Below the pieces are notes generated by a model. That model searched no databases. It was not told the origin of the DNA and was given only the letters and a program-made list of their open reading frames with translations. The position numbers and the translations under genes were made by a program. 47,273 nt of DNA, taken from positions 1-47,273 of IMG/VR virus record IMGVR_UViG_3300006737_000053. One strand, given 5' to 3'. Shown piece after piece: positions 2,928 to 47,273 of the stretch; the first letter of the stretch is position 1, and the number at the start of each line of letters is the position of its first letter. Source of the DNA: a virus.

Positions 2928-3934
2928 CTCGTATAAGGTCCAATTCCAGGATTAATTTGGGTTGGTGATCCGTCACCGTCACCATCCCAAGCTCTTTGCA
3001 TACTAACAGCCGCACGTTGTTCTAACAAAGGAACAATATTAACATCTACACTTGGTGTTTCATTGGCAACTTTAGAAGCTAATCCATTTACAATTGCCTC
3101 TAACCATCTATTTGGAATTTCAATTTCTTGCTGTAAAGTATTTGTGTCCATTACAGATCTATGTCTCCACAATATTAATTGTGTAGTTTCAGATACTAAA
3201 TTAGGAGCAGGCCAAATGTTAACAACAGGTTGTGCAACATTTCTTTGAAAATAATAAGTGCTAGGTTGACCTGAAAAAACAGTGTTGCTTTGATTTACAT
3301 ACTGATCTCTATTAAGCCTACCTAATGGTATTTCCATGGGCATATTACCCAACGTAATAGTTGTATAATTAATAGTTGAAACACCATCAGTTGGAATAAT
3401 TTTGAAATATTGATAAGCCAAGGCTGGCACAATATCAGTCCAAACTATGTCACCAGTTTGAGCTAATGCTCCCGTAGATAAATTAAAACTGTTAGTGGTA
3501 GCTACTGTTGTAAAGTTAACACCGTCTGAACTCACTTGAAATGTCAATGGAATTGCAGTTGCTGACCACTTTACTCCTACGGTATTGACAATTGTTGCTG
3601 TAGTAAAATTAACTAAATAAGAAGTATTAGTAGTTGTTATTGTACCCGTAGGAAATTGAGGTTGTCTGAAGTTTAAATTTAAAACATCTACTGTACCTAA
3701 AGGTAAAGTTACAACAGGTTGATTTTCATAAAAGGGAAGTATTACTTTTTCGATACACCAACTAGGAACTCTAATATTAGAAAGATCATCAAGCATAAAT
3801 GCCAATGAGTCCATTGCATAATCTTGCATCTCAGAAGTAATAGCCTGTGCAGGCAATCTACAACGCCTGAAAGCGTGATCTACTACTTTCAAAGAATTAA
3901 AAGTTTTTACACCAATATTTCCAGAGTACGCCAT
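2924..3934 (-). CDS. Head-tail connector (P22 gp4-like) with an inserted beta domain
   Basis: A 336-residue protein that fits the podovirus head-to-tail connector/stabilisation family. The N-terminus is helical, with 'ITSEMQDYAMDSLAFMLDDLSNIRVPSWCIEKVILPF'. After the insertion comes 'PLGRLNRDQYVNQSN...GQPSTYYFQRNV', 'PVVNIWPAPN', 'LILWRHRSVMDTNTLQQEIEIP' and 'RWLEAIVNGLASKVANE', the usual order in this family. Residues about 95-195 are an extra beta-rich block ('LTFQVSSDGVNFTTVATTN...YQYFKIIP') resembling a discoidin/F5-8C-type fold, which may be surface-exposed. AAAGGATT precedes the ATG. It lies after the capsid gene in the structural series, as expected. Confidence 0.72.
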   Translation of the reverse strand: MAYSGNIGVKTFNSLKVVDHAFRRCRLPAQAITSEMQDYAMDSLAFMLDDLSNIRVPSWCIEKVILPFYENQPVVTLPLGTVDVLNLNFRQPQFPTGTITTTNTSYLVNFTTATIVNTVGVKWSATAIPLTFQVSSDGVNFTTVATTNSFNLSTGALAQTGDIVWTDIVPALAYQYFKIIPTDGVSTINYTTITLGNMPMEIPLGRLNRDQYVNQSNTVFSGQPSTYYFQRNVAQPVVNIWPAPNLVSETTQLILWRHRSVMDTNTLQQEIEIPNRWLEAIVNGLASKVANETPSVDVNIVPLLEQRAAVSMQRAWDGDGDGSPTQINPGIGPYTR

Positions 3935-3994
3935 AGCAATCCTTTAGTTACTTACTGGATGCTGTTACAGCAACTCCCCTTGTAATTGATTAAT

Positions 3995-4255
3995 TTACCA
4001 ACCTTTACGTTTAAACTGACTATCTCCTGGCATCATTTTAAAACCATCAACGGCACCGCCTTTGGCGTATCCTTTGGTTTTCATTTTGCCACCCTTTTTC
4101 ATGTCCATTGTTCCAACAGAAGAATACGCTCGATTGCCCATAGATTTCTCCATGCCTTTGCTTTCATTGCGTCTGTCTTTCATAGACTGCGATTTCTTAC
4201 CATTTCTGGCACCCATCGACTCATCTAACTTATCATTGTATCCTTGTTTTCGCAT
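3995..4255 (-). CDS. Lys/Gly-rich basic protein with KGYAKGG motif
   Basis: An 86-residue, strongly basic protein. The start is the ATG at 4255, with GGAG six bases upstream; an in-frame TTG at 4267 would place that ribosome site inside the gene. It contains 'DKLDESMGARNG', 'SMKDRRNESKGM' and 'MKKGGKMKTKGYAKGGA'. The first two are shared with the upstream 259-aa neighbour (4269-5048), and the last with the 60-aa protein at 9851-10033. Low complexity and charge suggest nucleic-acid binding or an unstructured virion component. No function is known to me. Confidence 0.7.
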   Translation of the reverse strand: MRKQGYNDKLDESMGARNGKKSQSMKDRRNESKGMEKSMGNRAYSSVGTMDMKKGGKMKTKGYAKGGAVDGFKMMPGDSQFKRKGW

Positions 4256-4268
4256 TGTTCTCTCCAAT

Positions 4269-5048
4269 TCAGGCTTTGCTTTTAATCATAGGTGAACTTT
4301 TGTGAGTTGGGTAGCCTTTAGAACGACCACCTATTTTTTTTCTTTGAATGTCGTATTCCGACTCATCACGCAATCTTTTCATTTCATCACGAGCATTTCT
4401 TTCTCTTGATGAAACACGTTTTAATTGTTGTGATTTATCTATACGCTCTTGAGCATCATTAGATTTACGCGACTTAACACGTTTCATTTCATCAGCCGCA
4501 TCATCTTGTACGCCAATAACACGAGCCTCTTCATCACGAATGTTACGATTAACTTTACCACCACGAGCTTTTTTCATGCCTTTAAAAGTCTTAGCAAGGT
4601 TAGCTCTTTTTTGAGTAGTCGCAGATGGTTTACCACCACCTTTTGTTGCTGGCTTACCTGATGCAAGTTTATTAAGAACCCCAGAAGGAATTTTACCGTC
4701 CTTCATTTTTACACCCTCACCTTTTACATAATTGGTAAGTGCTCCTGGTTTTTTGACTGCACCTTGTATCCAGTTTTTAGATCCACCTTTTTTAAATGTT
4801 TCAACTGTCTCTTCGACAACCACAACATCACCCATTGGAACTTTGCTCTTTCTGCGAGTCATACCACGACTCTCATCTCTACGATCTTTATAGGATTGTT
4901 TTTTGGTGCGCTCTGCCCCATCTCTCGCGCCTAAACTTTCGTCTAAACGATCATTAGATGTTTGACCACCTCGTTTCATATTTTTAGTTGACAAAGACCC
5001 TGTGTATCCAAAGTCTTTGTCAAAATGCCATCCTTGTCTGATCCCCAT
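4269..5048 (-). CDS. Basic Lys/Arg-rich protein of unknown function (259 aa)
   Basis: A very basic 259-residue protein. Residues about 33-61 read 'DRLDESLGARDGAERTKKQS' then 'YKDRRDESRGM', closely matching a segment in the next gene (3995-4255), so the two share a duplicated module. The middle ('GSKNWIQGAVKKPGALTNY', then 'GEGVKMKDGKIPSGVLNKL') resembles a short segment found in many phage proteins. The C-terminal third is charged and probably helical ('RDEEARVIGVQDDAADEMKRVKS'). It overlaps the previous stop (TAATG) and has GGAGATC upstream. A DNA-binding or packaged virion protein is possible. Confidence 0.7.
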   Translation of the reverse strand: MGIRQGWHFDKDFGYTGSLSTKNMKRGGQTSNDRLDESLGARDGAERTKKQSYKDRRDESRGMTRRKSKVPMGDVVVVEETVETFKKGGSKNWIQGAVKKPGALTNYVKGEGVKMKDGKIPSGVLNKLASGKPATKGGGKPSATTQKRANLAKTFKGMKKARGGKVNRNIRDEEARVIGVQDDAADEMKRVKSRKSNDAQERIDKSQQLKRVSSRERNARDEMKRLRDESEYDIQRKKIGGRSKGYPTHKSSPMIKSKA

Positions 5049-5491
5049 TATTGATCTCCAGCTATGGCAGGAGCGTAAATTTTTATACCATATAAAATAA
5101 TAGTATAAGTATCACCACTAGAAGCCTCTCTTGTACTAAAAGCAACATTGCCTGCCTCATTGGTTCCCAGAGCACCTGTCCCGTTATATGGAATAGAAGG
5201 ATCATACCCAATGTCATATAATTGACCTTTAGGTATTGTCATAGCTAAAGCGTCATTGGCTGGTGTTGGATCTCCAACCCAATATATGTCCACACCCATG
5301 TCTTCAGTTTGAGCATATATTTTAGAAATTTTTATACCAATACAAGCTAAACCCTGAGAACTAGGACTTAAACCTGATACATCAACTTTAGTTACTTTTG
5401 CTTCCCCAGTTCCATCAGAGATATTAGTAAATTTAGCAATATATAATCGCTCACCATCTTGAAGAACTTGAGTTGTGACTGCATCAGCCAT
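5048..5491 (-). CDS. Beta-rich structural protein (147 aa)
   Basis: A 147-residue protein beginning MADAVTTQVLQDGERLYIAKFTNISDGTGEAKVTKVD. It shows regular beta-strand alternation throughout, including 'DMGVDIYWVGD', 'YDIGYDPSIPYNG' and a C-terminal 'YTIILYGIKIYAP'. I recall similar proteins between capsid and tail genes in marine phages, without assigned function. GGGAGGTGA lies seven bases before the ATG, one of the stronger ribosome sites in the region. It follows a 151-aa beta-rich protein of similar style. A head-completion or decoration role is a guess from position. Confidence 0.7.
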   Translation of the reverse strand: MADAVTTQVLQDGERLYIAKFTNISDGTGEAKVTKVDVSGLSPSSQGLACIGIKISKIYAQTEDMGVDIYWVGDPTPANDALAMTIPKGQLYDIGYDPSIPYNGTGALGTNEAGNVAFSTREASSGDTYTIILYGIKIYAPAIAGDQ

Positions 5492-5504
5492 AATTCACCT
5501 CCCT

Positions 5505-5960
5505 TTAAGAGAGATTGTTGTTTTGAATATACATCACAGTCAATGTAGCAACGCCAGATGTACCATCGCCCGTGGCACCAGTAAAATCTGCTAAAACTTC
5601 TAGATCAGTTGTGCCTACATTAGTAGCCTCAGTATCTAGTGTTCCACGCGTTGTACCCGTAGCTTTAGTGTTAATTCCATTTAAAAATGCGTCTGGATCA
5701 GAAGCAGTTCCAACAGAAATTACAGCAGCTCCAGTGTCATCTCCTGCGGTAGTTACATTCAAAATAACATCCACTATTTGTGACTTTGCAGGTATTACGG
5801 CAACTCTCTGATTAAGTTGGCTTGCACCTGTGATATTAGGAATCATTGACTGAGCCATAACAACAGATCCAGTATTAGCGATATTAACTCCAATATCCGT
5901 ACCAGTTGTTGCAGCTATAAGTCCTGCTTTAATAGGACCAGAAAAAGTAGTTGTACCCAT
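5505..5960 (-). CDS. Beta-rich structural protein (151 aa) after the capsid gene
   Basis: A 151-residue Gly/Thr/Ala-rich protein, MGTTTFSGPIKAGLIAATTG onwards. 'NIANTGSVVMAQSM', then 'INQRVAVIPAKSQIVDVILNVT'-like strands and a C-terminal 'GVATLTVMYIQNNN' suggest a beta sandwich. It is the first gene after the hairpin that follows the capsid gene, so it may be transcribed separately (candidate promoter at 5994-6022). GAGG lies before the ATG. A minor head or tail protein is likely from position; the family is not identified. Confidence 0.68.
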   Translation of the reverse strand: MGTTTFSGPIKAGLIAATTGTDIGVNIANTGSVVMAQSMIPNITGASQLNQRVAVIPAKSQIVDVILNVTTAGDDTGAAVISVGTASDPDAFLNGINTKATGTTRGTLDTEATNVGTTDLEVLADFTGATGDGTSGVATLTVMYIQNNNLS

Positions 5961-42708: not shown

Positions 42709-43773
42709 TTACGCTGGTTTGTTAGCTAAATTTTGTAGACCTTTATAAGTAGCAAGACCTGCGGCTATTTGTGATAGTGGACTTGGGGAATATGTAGCAC
42801 CCTCTGACGTTCCGCTTTGAGTGGTTCTCGATGGCGTTATAGGAGCCAAGCCTCTTAATTGCGTGCTTAAAAAATCTGCCTGTTGCATGGGATACATTTG
42901 TTGATCTAAAAATTCTTTTTCTGCTGCACTTAATTGCTGTTGCATTTGAGCTTGTTGTGCTTGCCCTGCAGCTTCCAAAGCGGCTGTATCGGTATATCCA
43001 AGTGCTTGTCTCTGAGCACCAAGATTAGACAAGTTATTTAATGCGCCTAACTGTCTAGCTAAATCTGATTCTTGTATCTGAGCTATTGTTTGACCAAGAC
43101 CGGCTTGTCTTGCCATGTCTGCCTGTGCAGCCCCCATTGCCTGTTGATAACCCGTGTTTAACAAGTTAGCTTGAGCATTTTGTAGACTTTCTTGCTCATC
43201 ACGCAGTGCTCTAGAACCAAAATCACCCATGCGACTAGAGCCAAATTGACCAGCTTTAATAAAAGCATCTGAAACAGCAGGTAATAAATTTTCAGATAAA
43301 TTTCTAGCACTTCTTTCTGCCATTTTATTCATCACGTTAGTAGTGTATGGGTTCATATAACTAGTAATATTGTCATATGATGTGTCATCTGCTTTGTCAA
43401 AAAATGGTTTAGCTTTTGCTTGAGCCGTATTTGTAGTCATCATTGCTGGGTTTTGCATATTGGTTGGAAGCATACTAGTCGGTGTGTCAGGCAATGGTGC
43501 TAACCCTGCTACTGCTCTTAATCCTGCCTGTGAGGCGTTTAAATCGTTTAGATATGATCCTTGAGCACCTTGCACTGCCGTGTATGCCTGTTGTTGTAAA
43601 GGGGATAAATCTGCAACTGTTGGTAATTCATAGCTTTCAAATGGACGGTTTGCTAAATTTTGAGACAGTTGCACCTGATTAAAGATTGCATCTTGCATCC
43701 ATTTTGGAGTTTCACTTGTACTGGTGCTATAACTTGTAGCTGTTTGTGGCGAACCTTGAAATAAACTAGCCAT
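42709..43773 (-). CDS. Gln/Ala-rich virion protein (354 aa)
   Basis: A 354-residue protein, MASLFQGSPQTATSYSTSTSETPKWMQDAIFNQVQLSQNLANRPFESYELP onwards. I recognise this style ('LSPLQQQAYTAVQGAQGSYLNDL', 'SYMNPYTTNVMNKMAERSARNLSENLLPAVSDAFIKAGQFGSSRMG') from conserved proteins next to internal-virion genes of marine phages. The body is Gln/Ala-rich coiled coil. It starts in a TAATG overlap with the 657-aa gene with GAGGAG upstream. An internal virion or tail-assembly role is likely but not demonstrated. Confidence 0.74.
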   Translation of the reverse strand: MASLFQGSPQTATSYSTSTSETPKWMQDAIFNQVQLSQNLANRPFESYELPTVADLSPLQQQAYTAVQGAQGSYLNDLNASQAGLRAVAGLAPLPDTPTSMLPTNMQNPAMMTTNTAQAKAKPFFDKADDTSYDNITSYMNPYTTNVMNKMAERSARNLSENLLPAVSDAFIKAGQFGSSRMGDFGSRALRDEQESLQNAQANLLNTGYQQAMGAAQADMARQAGLGQTIAQIQESDLARQLGALNNLSNLGAQRQALGYTDTAALEAAGQAQQAQMQQQLSAAEKEFLDQQMYPMQQADFLSTQLRGLAPITPSRTTQSGTSEGATYSPSPLSQIAAGLATYKGLQNLANKPA

Positions 43774-45746
43774 TACGCACTCCTCTTCATATATTCAAGT
43801 GGTGACTTAGCATCTGGGCTAAATCGACCATCTGCCAGAGCTTTTCCTTTATGAGATCTTAAATTTTTTCTCATGTCGTTTAACATTTTAGCCCCTGCTT
43901 TATTTGACCCGTTCCCCAACATTGACACTGACTCAGCATCTATAACAAACTCGCCGTCTGACAGTCTAGCATTTATTAAATCAGCGCGACCATCTCCAGA
44001 CCCCGTAGCATATCCTGGAATTGCACTAAGACCGCCTCTTGCATATCGTTGTGATGCAAATGATTGTACATAACTTGGTTGTTGGTCAAACATACCACTA
44101 TTTGCTTCAGATCTAAACTTAGGATTAGTAATAAACTCAGTAACACTTGTTCCTTTAGAGTTAGCCATTGCTTGAATTTTATTCCAATCCCAAGTAGCTA
44201 AATTTCGATTAAAATATTCTTCTTGTTCTGGAGTAAATTGAGGCATTTCTACACCACTACCGCTACCGCCATCCATTGATGCCAACAGAGCAACAATCCC
44301 TCCTACTTTAGCAGTGTCAGAACCAATTACGTTAGACAGTCTAGATAAAATTCCTTGTGAATCACCTACATTTTCACCACCCATTAGCTCACTGTCACTG
44401 TAACTTGCCATTGATGGATTAGGTGAATTTACAGCATCCATATCATTTACTAGTGATGATGCATTATTGTTATTGTTAACTGATTGAGGATTAGTTCCTG
44501 CAAATTGATTTTCTTGACGTATGATTTCACCCACAGAAGGAGCACTTTGACTCATTGCATACGCCCCTTGAGGGTTATTACTAGGAAGTCCTCTCTGTCC
44601 ACCACTACCTATATCCATGTAATCATCTTGTGGGAAAAGCTCTAATGGATTAGGACCACCCATTAGCTCATTATCACTGTAACTTGCCATTGATGGATTA
44701 GGTGCCATAAAGTCATATGTGTTTGTATCTACAAACGTATCCGCAACAGGAAGACCTTGCTCACTAAACACGGCATCTGATATTCCTGAATAGGGAGTAG
44801 TATCTGTTGAAAAGCCTTGTGTTATAGGACTTGTAAAATTACTTACAGCGTTTGTCATTGGGCTAAATGTATTTTTTAATGAGTTTACTACTGACTTACT
44901 TGCATTTTCAATTTGAGGTTTGAACATAGAACCTGCCGCACCTAACATGGCACCTTGAGCTATATTACCGCCTCTAATCGCAGACGTTAACGCCCCAGTT
45001 CCTGCCCCAACAAGTAAATTAGCTGTTGGTTCACTTATGTTAGCAAACGCACCTAAAGATTCACTTAGACCTGAAGCAGCCCCACCAATACCACCTGTCA
45101 ACGCACCCAATAAAGGATCACCACCCGTAACAAATGAAGTTGCACCACCTAAAAGTGCTCCACCAGCCACAGCTGCAGCCGTACCTGTTCCAAGTCCAAT
45201 TGCTGTTCCAATAGCTGTTCCAAGTCCTGGAGCAACAATACTTAAAGCGATTGGCAATGCCACTCTTATTATATTTTTAAGACCTTTATATTCTTGCAAG
45301 CCTGTGTTTGGATTGACAGTGCCTTGACCACCCATCCTTCTGAGAACTTCAGCCTCTCTAGGATTAATGTGGGCAAGCATAGTGTCTCCACCTTGACCCA
45401 TGCGTCCTAGTTGTTTACCTGCAACTCTAAGACCACCTCGTGAGTAACCCTCTTGAACGAGACTGTCTTGCAAGCCATACAAAACAATCAACAAACTTAT
45501 AATGATAGTTTTATCAAACTCTGGGGGAAACATACCCTCATCAATTAGACCGTCTGCTATTGCTGCTTGACGAATTTCTGCATACTTACGAGGGTCTTCT
45601 ATGATCATTTCTAACATTCTTATTGCTTCAACTAAGTCTTCAGCAACAATATTAGTGTTAGCCATTTGCCTTTTTATTTGATCAATAGAAGTCTGATAGG
45701 ACGGATCAGAAACCGCAATTTTCATTATTTCTTCTTTAATGCTCAT
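43773..45746 (-). CDS. Large virion protein with glycine-zipper segment (657 aa)
   Basis: A 657-residue protein. Residues 103-152 ('SRGGLRVAGKQLGRMGQGG' then 'DTMLAHINPREAEVLRRMGG') are a motif common in marine phage virion proteins. Residues about 160-270 are Gly/Ala/Ile-rich with glycine-zipper character ('GLGTAIGTAIGLGTGTAAAV'), suggesting membrane insertion on infection. The middle is Asn/Ser-rich with a duplicated 'NPSMASYSD(N/S)ELMGG'. The end ('INARLSDGEFVIDAESVSML', 'KAGAKMLNDMRKNLRSHKG') is another widespread phage C-terminus. Start ATG 45746 has GAGGG upstream and overlaps the GNAT-like gene (ATGA). Confidence 0.74.
   Translation of the reverse strand: MSIKEEIMKIAVSDPSYQTSIDQIKRQMANTNIVAEDLVEAIRMLEMIIEDPRKYAEIRQAAIADGLIDEGMFPPEFDKTIIISLLIVLYGLQDSLVQEGYSRGGLRVAGKQLGRMGQGGDTMLAHINPREAEVLRRMGGQGTVNPNTGLQEYKGLKNIIRVALPIALSIVAPGLGTAIGTAIGLGTGTAAAVAGGALLGGATSFVTGGDPLLGALTGGIGGAASGLSESLGAFANISEPTANLLVGAGTGALTSAIRGGNIAQGAMLGAAGSMFKPQIENASKSVVNSLKNTFSPMTNAVSNFTSPITQGFSTDTTPYSGISDAVFSEQGLPVADTFVDTNTYDFMAPNPSMASYSDNELMGGPNPLELFPQDDYMDIGSGGQRGLPSNNPQGAYAMSQSAPSVGEIIRQENQFAGTNPQSVNNNNNASSLVNDMDAVNSPNPSMASYSDSELMGGENVGDSQGILSRLSNVIGSDTAKVGGIVALLASMDGGSGSGVEMPQFTPEQEEYFNRNLATWDWNKIQAMANSKGTSVTEFITNPKFRSEANSGMFDQQPSYVQSFASQRYARGGLSAIPGYATGSGDGRADLINARLSDGEFVIDAESVSMLGNGSNKAGAKMLNDMRKNLRSHKGKALADGRFSPDAKSPLEYMKRSA
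44376..44425 (-). repeat. 50-bp direct repeat, copy A (in the 657-aa gene)
   Basis: This 50-bp segment recurs at 44655-44704 with only two differences. Both copies are in frame and encode 'NPSMASYSD(N/S)ELMGG'. Such close identity within one gene points to a recent duplication or gene conversion, and makes the gene prone to in-frame deletion of the 279 bp between copies. Confidence 0.85.
44655..44704 (-). repeat. 50-bp direct repeat, copy B (in the 657-aa gene)
   Basis: Second copy of the segment at 44376-44425, 48 of 50 bases identical, 279 bp away centre to centre, a multiple of three. It encodes 'NPSMASYSDNELMGG', and the other copy differs by Asn to Ser. Confidence 0.85.
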
Positions 45747-46192
45747 TTCGCCCTCGCATTTGACCATGCATGGTTAATGTACTCATCGCGCAATAACCCA
45801 AAAATATTTAAATCTTCGTCATTTTCATAAGCACATCTCATCACACCCTCGTGCTTAAATCCTAACTTATTTACAAACTTTTTAGAAGATGAATTACTAT
45901 CCCCTACTAATGCTGTAGCTCTTACAGCCTCTAATATCTTAAAAACATAAGTAAAAATAGCATTATACATTTTTACTGTTTCTTTTGGTGCTGACCAATA
46001 ACCCTCTTTTGCTACAAAATTCATATCAATATTTCGTTTAGTAAAATTACTAAAAATAGCTACACAAACAAATTCACCTTTATCATCTACAGCCGACATA
46101 GCCCTAAAAAACTCAGGATTACCCTTTACGCCTAACCGATCTCTGGCCCATTTTTCAGCCTCTTCTTCTCTACTAAATCCAATAAACTTCAT
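45743..46192 (-). CDS. GNAT-fold acetyltransferase-like protein
   Basis: A 149-residue protein with a GNAT-like layout. 'FVCVAIFSNFTKRNIDMNFVAKEG' covers the central strands; 'AVRATALVGDSNSSSKKFVNKLGFKHEGVMR' matches the acetyl-CoA-binding C-terminal motif (Asn-Ser followed by LGFKxEG). T7-like phages carry related GNAT-fold proteins beside their internal-virion genes, so it may be structural or assembly-related rather than enzymatic. It overlaps neighbours by four bases on both sides (ATGA). The substrate is unknown. Confidence 0.78.
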   Translation of the reverse strand: MKFIGFSREEEAEKWARDRLGVKGNPEFFRAMSAVDDKGEFVCVAIFSNFTKRNIDMNFVAKEGYWSAPKETVKMYNAIFTYVFKILEAVRATALVGDSNSSSKKFVNKLGFKHEGVMRCAYENDEDLNIFGLLRDEYINHAWSNARAK

Positions 46193-46422
46193 AGCGTTGT
46201 CTGAACAAATCGTTCAGCCCATTCTCTCCAATCGTCATACATATAAGGGTCAGGAAAATCTTCTACGAGGTTTGTAGCATTAAGAAATTGACTGCCCCAA
46301 TCTTGCCATTTTTCTGGATCTTCTAAAGGATCAAAAGCTCCAAAATCTACAAAGTCTGTAATCAGGCAATTTGCCCAATCCGTCAATTCTATACCAACAG
46401 GCCATGTGACACTTAATCCCAT
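46189..46422 (-). CDS. Small acidic Trp-rich protein (77 aa)
   Basis: A 77-residue acidic protein, MGLSVTWPVGIELTDWANCLITDFVDFGAFDPLEDPEKWQDWGSQFLNATNLVEDFPDPYMYDDWREWAERFVQTTL. It is rich in Trp, Asp and Phe and probably forms two or three helices. It shares one base with the stop of the virion protein upstream and overlaps the GNAT-like gene by four bases. I recall similar short acidic genes near tail genes of marine phages. Function unknown; a tail-assembly role is possible from position. Confidence 0.7.
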   Translation of the reverse strand: MGLSVTWPVGIELTDWANCLITDFVDFGAFDPLEDPEKWQDWGSQFLNATNLVEDFPDPYMYDDWREWAERFVQTTL

Positions 46423-47273
46423 TACCCTAGATCCGTTCCATCACCGTTGTCTAAATGCCCTATAATTTGACCCATTTGATAGTCTCCGTATAAAGCATTA
46501 CTCGTAAATTTAACTCTTAATTCTCTACGTTGTTCTTTTAACATTACAATTTGTTCGTAAGGTTGATTGGCAGAAGCAGGAAATGCCACAGTCGAACTTG
46601 TAACTTCTGGTGCTCTTGCATTGGCTCTACCTGTGATTTCTACTGTCATGTCACCCACTTGAACAAAATCAGGTTCAATTTGTGTTATTCTCAAATAACG
46701 ATCTAACCCTTGTGGCAATGTAGATAAATCAGCCGTTTCAAAAAACGATTTAATTGGATTAATTGTTGGACCGTCTACTTCATCAACACCAAATTCATGT
46801 TGCCAGACTTTGTAACCAACACCTCTGATATTTGTGTTTATCTGACCACCCATTCCACTATGAATTTCACAATAATAATATAAAGTTGGTGCTCCACTTG
46901 GTACTATAATTTGTGTGTATGCGCCTGCTTGCCCTAACACCCCGACAACTGTTACGCCTGTCGTATATTCCACACCACCGCCATGCGTGCCGTCTGATGT
47001 TGAAGACAAACGCAAGGGATGACCTACGTTAGAAGAATCAGATTGATCAAATCGGTAAGTGTTGCCCTCTCTAAAAGTTAAAGTTGGTTGTGCGCTCCCA
47101 CTCATATTATATTTGTTACCAGAACCAGAATTAACCACTGTAACAGCAAGTGTTTCAGTAGGGTCTAATGGCAATGGAGAGGGTTCCACACCCGTCAATA
47201 TAGGTGCGGCAAATGAATTGTTAAACTGACCTGCTGATCGACCATTATTAGGAAGTTCTGTGTCGTACCATGT
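46422..47273 (-). CDS. Virion protein with a cupredoxin-like domain, 5' end cut by the window edge
   Basis: At least 283 residues; the frame is open to the right edge, so the N-terminus is missing. An internal TTG at 47198 is not a convincing start because the preceding codons read like protein. Counting from that TTG, residues about 15-122 form a cupredoxin-like domain: 'YNMSGSAQPTLTFREGNTYRF', His60 in 'NVGHPLRLSS', then 'TLYYYCEIHSGMGGQI' with Cys110, His113 and Met116. C-x2-H-x2-M plus an upstream His is the type 1 copper ligand set with amicyanin-like spacing. The rest is beta-rich. Copper binding is inferred. Confidence 0.78.
   Translation of the reverse strand, partial: TWYDTELPNNGRSAGQFNNSFAAPILTGVEPSPLPLDPTETLAVTVVNSGSGNKYNMSGSAQPTLTFREGNTYRFDQSDSSNVGHPLRLSSTSDGTHGGGVEYTTGVTVVGVLGQAGAYTQIIVPSGAPTLYYYCEIHSGMGGQINTNIRGVGYKVWQHEFGVDEVDGPTINPIKSFFETADLSTLPQGLDRYLRITQIEPDFVQVGDMTVEITGRANARAPEVTSSTVAFPASANQPYEQIVMLKEQRRELRVKFTSNALYGDYQMGQIIGHLDNGDGTDLG

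Follow-up and report, generated by a model that had tools for sequence, protein, structure and literature searches.

A predicted copper-type cupredoxin domain inserted in a nozzle-type phage tail protein

The locus and its nozzle-type carrier

The window, i.e. the entire stretch of 47,273 bases that was analysed, corresponds to a complete virus record, whose final ORF on the minus strand (283 codons, encoding the 283-aa product P0001; Table 1) is open at the right end of the window and encodes the C-terminal piece of a longer protein, the 5' end of its gene being located outside the window. Two genes past this ORF, amid structural genes, we found a GNAT-type acetyltransferase (window 45743-46192, minus strand; phrog_4470, E-value 2.2e-21). 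The region 42709-45767 of the window, also on the minus strand, resembles the C-terminal part of a tape-measure protein (a weak match, 8.1e-5) and a "DNA ejection protein" (phrog_4287, 2.3e-12), and on the basis of these matches genes of the ejection type appear to come after the nozzle gene.

Table 1. Features of the final minus-strand ORF (positions in the window; residue numbers refer to P0001)
Feature	Position	Strand	Basis
Predicted nozzle-family tail protein, C-terminal 283 aa with cupredoxin insert	46422..47273	-	ORF; 728-aa relatives; PDB chains 9nwi_Y, 8zkm_E, 8zkk_O
Optional insert, aa 29-149, ends approximate	46827..47189	-	not in most nozzle homologues at the same site
Cupredoxin domain as modelled, aa 40-152	46818..47156	-	mean pLDDT 96.2; Foldseek and VIA-align matches
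Predicted copper ligand His85	codon 47019..47021	-	His in 139/144 cluster representatives
Predicted copper ligand Cys135	codon 46869..46871	-	Cys in 138/144 cluster representatives
Predicted copper ligand His138	codon 46860..46862	-	His in 137/144 cluster representatives
Predicted axial ligand Met141	codon 46851..46853	-	Met in 134/144 cluster representatives
Nozzle C-terminal part beyond the insert, beginning at about 'IRGVGYKVWQHEF'	46422..46826	-	continuous with insert-free homologues

P0001 comprises only the portion of the protein beyond the region matched by solved nozzles, and its link to them runs via near-identical full-length relatives. Contigs that are 96-100% identical to it in the domain encode full-length proteins of 728 aa (L004-L007), one of which (L005) matched the PDB chains 9nwi_Y (E-value 1.8e-12), 8zkm_E (9.9e-7) and 8zkk_O (about 1e-6), the latter two both carrying the name "nozzle" in the PDB. 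The profile built from 39 nozzle homologues identified the same relationship (9nwi_Y, 2e-17; 8zkm_E, 8.2e-12), with the match stopping shortly before the insert site. These matches indicate that the carrier is a nozzle protein, which refines the original prediction of a "tail-region" protein: it is a nozzle-type protein with a putative copper-type domain inserted. The solved chains (9nwi chain Y, 8zkm/8zkk) are homologous to the carrier, comprise 513-521 aa and have no copper-type insert in the matched part. A full-length relative of the carrier also matched PHROG 3287 ("virion structural protein"). The phmmer search of P0001 against the PDB and the NCBIfam searches with P0001 and L005 returned no matches. 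A tail fibre identity of the window protein was considered and ruled out, because the carrier matches nozzle chains; the domain does occur in fibre-annotated proteins elsewhere. The closest named relatives of the carrier come from the Caulobacter phages GB2A, RW, RLK and KcrB (50.7% identity, in three pieces that together cover 77% of the query).

The nozzle is the part of short tails that forms the DNA exit tube, and in the cyanophage P-SCSP1u it is a hexamer with a central beta-propeller (PMC10575957; this and the other articles cited were consulted as excerpts). The gp23 nozzle of P-SCSP1u is likened to the carrier by its published description only. The AlphaFold2 model of full-length L005 (pLDDT 50) is too poor to judge the beta-propeller core or the placement of the insert. 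A second optional nozzle domain is apparent in L005 (ORF 3525-5708) at approximately aa 100-205; it is absent from L012, contains blocks with pLDDT of about 75-95 even in the poor full-length model, and the corresponding region of the profile weakly matched the tail sheath protein 8fop_T in the PDB (E-value 0.071). Another observation concerns the 58,525-base contig IMGVR_UViG_3300021197_001797, each end of which matches the nozzle gene (L105 and L109, 98% and 95% identical to the query), which represents either two copies or the join of two variants.

The copper-type domain corresponds to an extra segment of ~114 residues between the nozzle motifs "FAAPxLTG" and "GYKVW". It is present in 12 of the 73 nozzle homologues that could be classed and absent from the remaining 61 (80 homologues were found, of which 7 extend past the end of their contigs and were excluded from the classing, one of them, L106, with the insert). 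Among near-identical nozzles, the alignment revealed L132 without the insert and L133 and L134 with it, the inserts of the latter two diverging more than their flanks, as judged by eye. On the tree of 62 unique insert-stripped sequences derived from the 73 classable homologues, the trait requires at least 6 gains or losses, of which at least 4 are forced by well-supported branches. Its presence and absence among similar nozzles, together with these changes on the tree, shows that the cupredoxin insert is an optional, modular unit of the nozzle.

The cupredoxin fold and its ligand set

Modelled alone from an alignment of 91 sequences, the domain was predicted with high confidence (Table 1; pTM 0.88). 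The Foldseek search of the PDB reported rusticyanin (1rcy, E-value 9.4e-4) as the best structure and the sole one below 0.001 among the matches listed; the best 50 are nearly all cupredoxins or multicopper-type proteins, with a semaphorin at rank 23. The best 50 matches of VIA-align are all nitrite reductases, laccases or rusticyanins, headed by residues 27-135 of 2dv6_A (Z 9.5, rmsd 2.6, 98 aligned). The family profile compared with 177,635 PDB sequences placed plastocyanins at the top, at a modest E-value of 0.0017, followed by nitrite reductase and pseudoazurin, with antibodies also turning up from about 0.16; its alignment sets the H, C, H and M of the domain onto the copper ligands of plastocyanin. 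No Pfam family matched the window protein at E-value ≤ 1 (the gathering cut-off of PF00127, Copper-bind, was not reached), while PF00127 was matched at E-value ≤ 0.1 by 10 of 91 relatives (the sequences of alignment A2, see below), at best with 8.9e-4.

In the predicted model the first His precedes the strand 48-51, the Cys closes the strand 92-96, and the second His and the Met are located in the loop ahead of the strand 104-109, so that both the strand order and the ligand placement are cupredoxin-like. The ligand loop C-x2-H-x2-M is two residues shorter than that of plastocyanin, a length also found in amicyanin. The same predicted fold and His...Cys-x2-His-x2-Met order are found in the type 1 copper cupredoxins (plastocyanin, amicyanin, rusticyanin and the N-terminal domain of Hyphomicrobium nitrite reductase), with which the phage domain shares the plastocyanin ligand register and Gln as the alternative axial residue; it differs from them in being inserted in or fused to virion proteins, with no signal peptide seen for the domain itself, and the window protein is too distant for a Pfam match. 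Thus, the plastocyanin-like domain originally proposed is borne out by the model, both structure searches and the family profile, and its four ligands are indeed found in the order His, Cys, His, Met with the C-x2-H-x2-M spacing. Their convergence in the predicted fold holds as a register with solved cupredoxins (profile alignment, model and VIA-align), and to that extent only. A chance motif is ruled out by the fold, the ligand register and the conservation. We conclude that, as judged from model and sequence, the domain is a cupredoxin with a complete predicted type 1 site.

The first reading of this sequence held that retention of the ligands would argue for metal binding and that variable residues at their positions would speak against it, and such residues were looked for in several samples. 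Close relatives retain the complete set (HCHM) in 86/86 matches from 80 loci, a weak count since the search seeds included ligand peptides. Named phages have HCHM at the best place in 20 of the 22 records fetched, the exceptions being PSS2 (D-A-T-M) and S-WAM1 (H-A, the remainder not aligned). The HMM search over all loci yielded 329 domains, 270 of them unique and 243 of full coverage; the 27 set aside for partial coverage include several without ligands and several that are one domain split in two. HCHM was found in 232 of the 243 (HCHQ in 3, HCHK in 1, others in 7) and, upon clustering at 80%, in 133 of 144 representatives. The fairest sample was obtained with a DNA pattern for G-x-T-Y-x-F-D-Q-x-D, which contains none of the ligands: 110 of its 120 domains are HCHM, 3 HCHQ, 1 HCHK and six others, although here, as for the 243, the HMM used was trained on ligand-retaining rows. 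An HMM-free check of this ligand-blind sample found a relative in 119 of the 120 stretches, and in 85 of the 99 usable pattern sites (123 in total, 24 cut short) a His and a C-x2-H-x1-3-[MQK] loop lie further along the protein; one of the 14 sites without them belongs to an unrelated protein, L226.

Two alignments were also prepared. A1 (20 rows) combines the window with 19 of the 22 loci from named phages, omitting the non-retaining PSS2 and S-WAM1 as well as L100, a near copy of the P-SSM2 domain; A2 (91 rows) comprises the window, 88 of 107 cluster representatives and two more, the 19 representatives omitted including all ten without HCHM. As this choice of rows favoured retaining members, their "invariant" columns are not evidence, whereas the HMM and ligand-blind counts are. 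Among the 144 representatives, the conservation of the ligand columns is 0.965 (H), 0.958 (C), 0.951 (H) and 0.931 (M), and only an F (1.0) and a G (0.972) column outrank the first His. The codons under the ligand residues vary synonymously. The ligands are under purifying selection, and retention combined with synonymous variation beneath it argues for a selected metal site, as the original prediction had reasoned. In 135 of 138 cases the domain contains no Cys apart from the ligand, which rules out a disulfide role within the domain.

Where the set is broken, Met alone is replaced in 4 of the 144 representatives (by Gln in 3 and Lys in 1), H, C and H being retained, and at least two ligands are gone together in 7, compared with a permutation mean of 1.87 (3 of 5,000 permutations reach 7; as the rows are related, this serves as a guide only). 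In stellacyanin-type sites, Gln in place of Met is the natural change at the axial position. This pattern of retention and loss is, at the level of sequence, as expected of a copper site under selection, and we regard it as highly probable, given also the model, that the predicted site binds copper. As some members lack the site and still have the fold, copper is not required for folding in all of them.

The axial replacements fall in a subgroup with a longer loop, where L270, L282 and L325 are HCHQ and L243 is HCHK; L273 has three site-less copies in one ORF. The site-less members of this subgroup keep Gln at the axial position (HGNQ, HGGQ, YSNQ), which suggests that here the axial change came ahead of the other ligand losses.

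Occurrence of the domain

Of the 50,697 phage records searched with tblastn, 63 contain the domain. Sorted by the first word of their names, they comprise 23 Synechococcus, 14 Prochlorococcus, 13 Cyanophage, 4 Pelagibacter, 4 Methylophilales and 3 Marine records, with Mediterranean plankton and seawater as the source of the remaining two. The phages in question are marine cyanophages, pelagiphages and phages of Methylophilales, and cultured representatives with the domain include the Pelagibacter phage HTVC028P and the cyanophages Syn1 and S-TIM5. By annotation, the carriers are tail fibres, baseplate wedges, connectors, or virion structural or hypothetical proteins; in 20 annotated cases their length ranges from 112 to 1826 aa, and the start of the domain falls between aa 6 and aa 620. 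The "virion structural" labels of cyanophages rest partly on virion proteomics of S-SM1 and orthology (PMC3037559). Taken with the ligand counts, this suggests that many phage particles with the domain would bind copper. None of 72,556 plasmid records matched at E-value ≤ 0.01, and plasmid-borne spread was on this ground ruled out.

Contigs of cellular genomes contain 13 loci, some of which resemble phage DNA. Three of the six cellular proteins scanned are subtilases with cadherin domains, all from SAR86 contigs (L334, L335 and L340); they are large, have HCHM in the domain, and in L335 and L340 the domain lies between the protease and the P-domain. It follows from these carriers that marine bacteria seem to put the module on secreted or surface proteins as well.

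Possible roles at the virion surface

We think it fairly probable that the window protein is a marine phage nozzle whose inserted cupredoxin is a copper-stabilised, exchangeable module of the tail surface for host contact. The domain would be inserted at a site of the nozzle that tolerates it. The bacterial cytoplasm contains hardly any free copper, and for this reason we place copper uptake after release: the virion would leave the copper-poor cytoplasm with an empty site, to be filled outside from seawater or the host envelope. Copper may then lock or stiffen the ligand loop into a rigid surface patch, and the domain, as an exchangeable tail decoration, could take part in host-surface contact like the Ig-like domains inserted in other nozzles and fibres. 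In the nozzle of SU10, Ig-like accessory beta-sandwich domains are likewise inserted; these differ in being four in number, between propeller blades 2 and 3, with no metal site mentioned in the excerpt of the article, and they are located at the tip of the tail and swing into alignment upon host binding (PMC9509320). It is because these domains are active at host binding that we prefer a copper-stabilised contact module, and we infer the contact role solely from the position and exchangeability of the domain, by analogy; the SAR86 subtilase/cadherin proteins were also counted toward a surface use. Among stability, redox sensing and host-surface binding, the roles originally envisaged, a stabilised host-contact module is thus ranked as the most likely.

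Type 1 sites in known proteins serve electron transfer, and the copper, or the bare Cys, might instead sense the redox state or pass electrons at the host envelope, so as to trigger or license the opening of the tail. The predicted type 1 site is complete, and axial Gln variants, which would tune the redox potential, do occur. The nozzle acts as the gate of the channel for the DNA (PMC10575957). However, a common trigger is hard to picture for a domain that occurs in fibres, baseplates and unnamed virion proteins at differing positions, and the insert is optional among closely similar nozzles, so we consider a redox use unlikely.

One Cys, two His and an axial Met or Gln in a cupredoxin fold are the classical copper set, and Met and Gln are poor ligands for zinc or iron, which makes it improbable that the four residues hold one of these metals. 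The model for such a site is the HxH iron of T4 gp37, the "Ferrojan horse" (PMC11705849): the iron sites described in phage fibres are, like the copper-type site, tail metal sites, and are proposed to act in host contact at sea, but their iron is held between intertwined fibre chains, whereas the phage cupredoxin site belongs to a single domain. No conserved HxH was found in the domain, whose conserved set is H...C-x2-H-x2-M, and the HxH pattern has no part in the ligand set.

Ig-like spacers are common on virions, and the domain could be a metal-free structural spacer of cupredoxin ancestry, with the residues kept for packing of the apo-protein or by recent descent; some members without the site do keep the fold. 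The Ig-like domains of SU10 provide an example (PMC9509320). Yet the set is retained in 133 of 144 representatives with synonymous change underneath, a free surface Cys in oxygenated water would have no obvious use in packing, and the losses follow the pattern expected of a metal site; we therefore give the spacer little credence. A captured petE-like auxiliary metabolic gene that aids host photosynthesis is scarcely credible and was rejected: cyanophages do carry petE, another type 1 copper protein encoded in phage genomes (PMC2984593), and many of the matches are cyanophages, but petE is a separate gene for a plastocyanin homologue, while the domain is fused inside virion proteins, with no gene of its own in the loci examined (which largely refutes this explanation), and occurs also in phages of non-phototrophs, namely of SAR11 and Methylophilales.

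Full-text searches of one open-licence library brought up, as judged from titles and abstracts, no description of a cupredoxin in a virion protein; the articles consulted there deal with nitrite reductase genes (PMC8115048), petE (PMC2984593) and the iron sites (PMC11705849). Thus the fold and the site are known, and for their location in a phage tail no report was found in that library.

Copper in the sea is scarce and tightly complexed. We would also entertain, as a rather doubtful generalisation of the copper-stabilised contact module, that many marine phages, though unrelated, have virions that are copper proteins, in which an exchangeable type 1 module, carried by nozzles, fibres and baseplates, acquires copper from seawater or the host envelope and puts it to use in host contact, either as a redox-sensitive trigger or to engage copper-handling surface proteins. 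If this is true, it would be the equivalent for copper of the iron-based "Ferrojan horse", phages would be among the copper ligands of the ocean, and a selected, widespread copper site would join the parts list of the phage particle in abundant marine viruses. It raises a directly testable question: do virions contain copper, and does adsorption depend on it?

The domain is also contained in the PHROG tail families 30742, 693, 677 and 708, whose names make no mention of cupredoxin, and it therefore offers a key to the interpretation of many unnamed tail proteins of marine viromes. For the window protein the PHROG match is confined to the domain, with aa 49-156 aligned to positions 351-457 of 1029 in phrog_30742 and no match of the whole protein.
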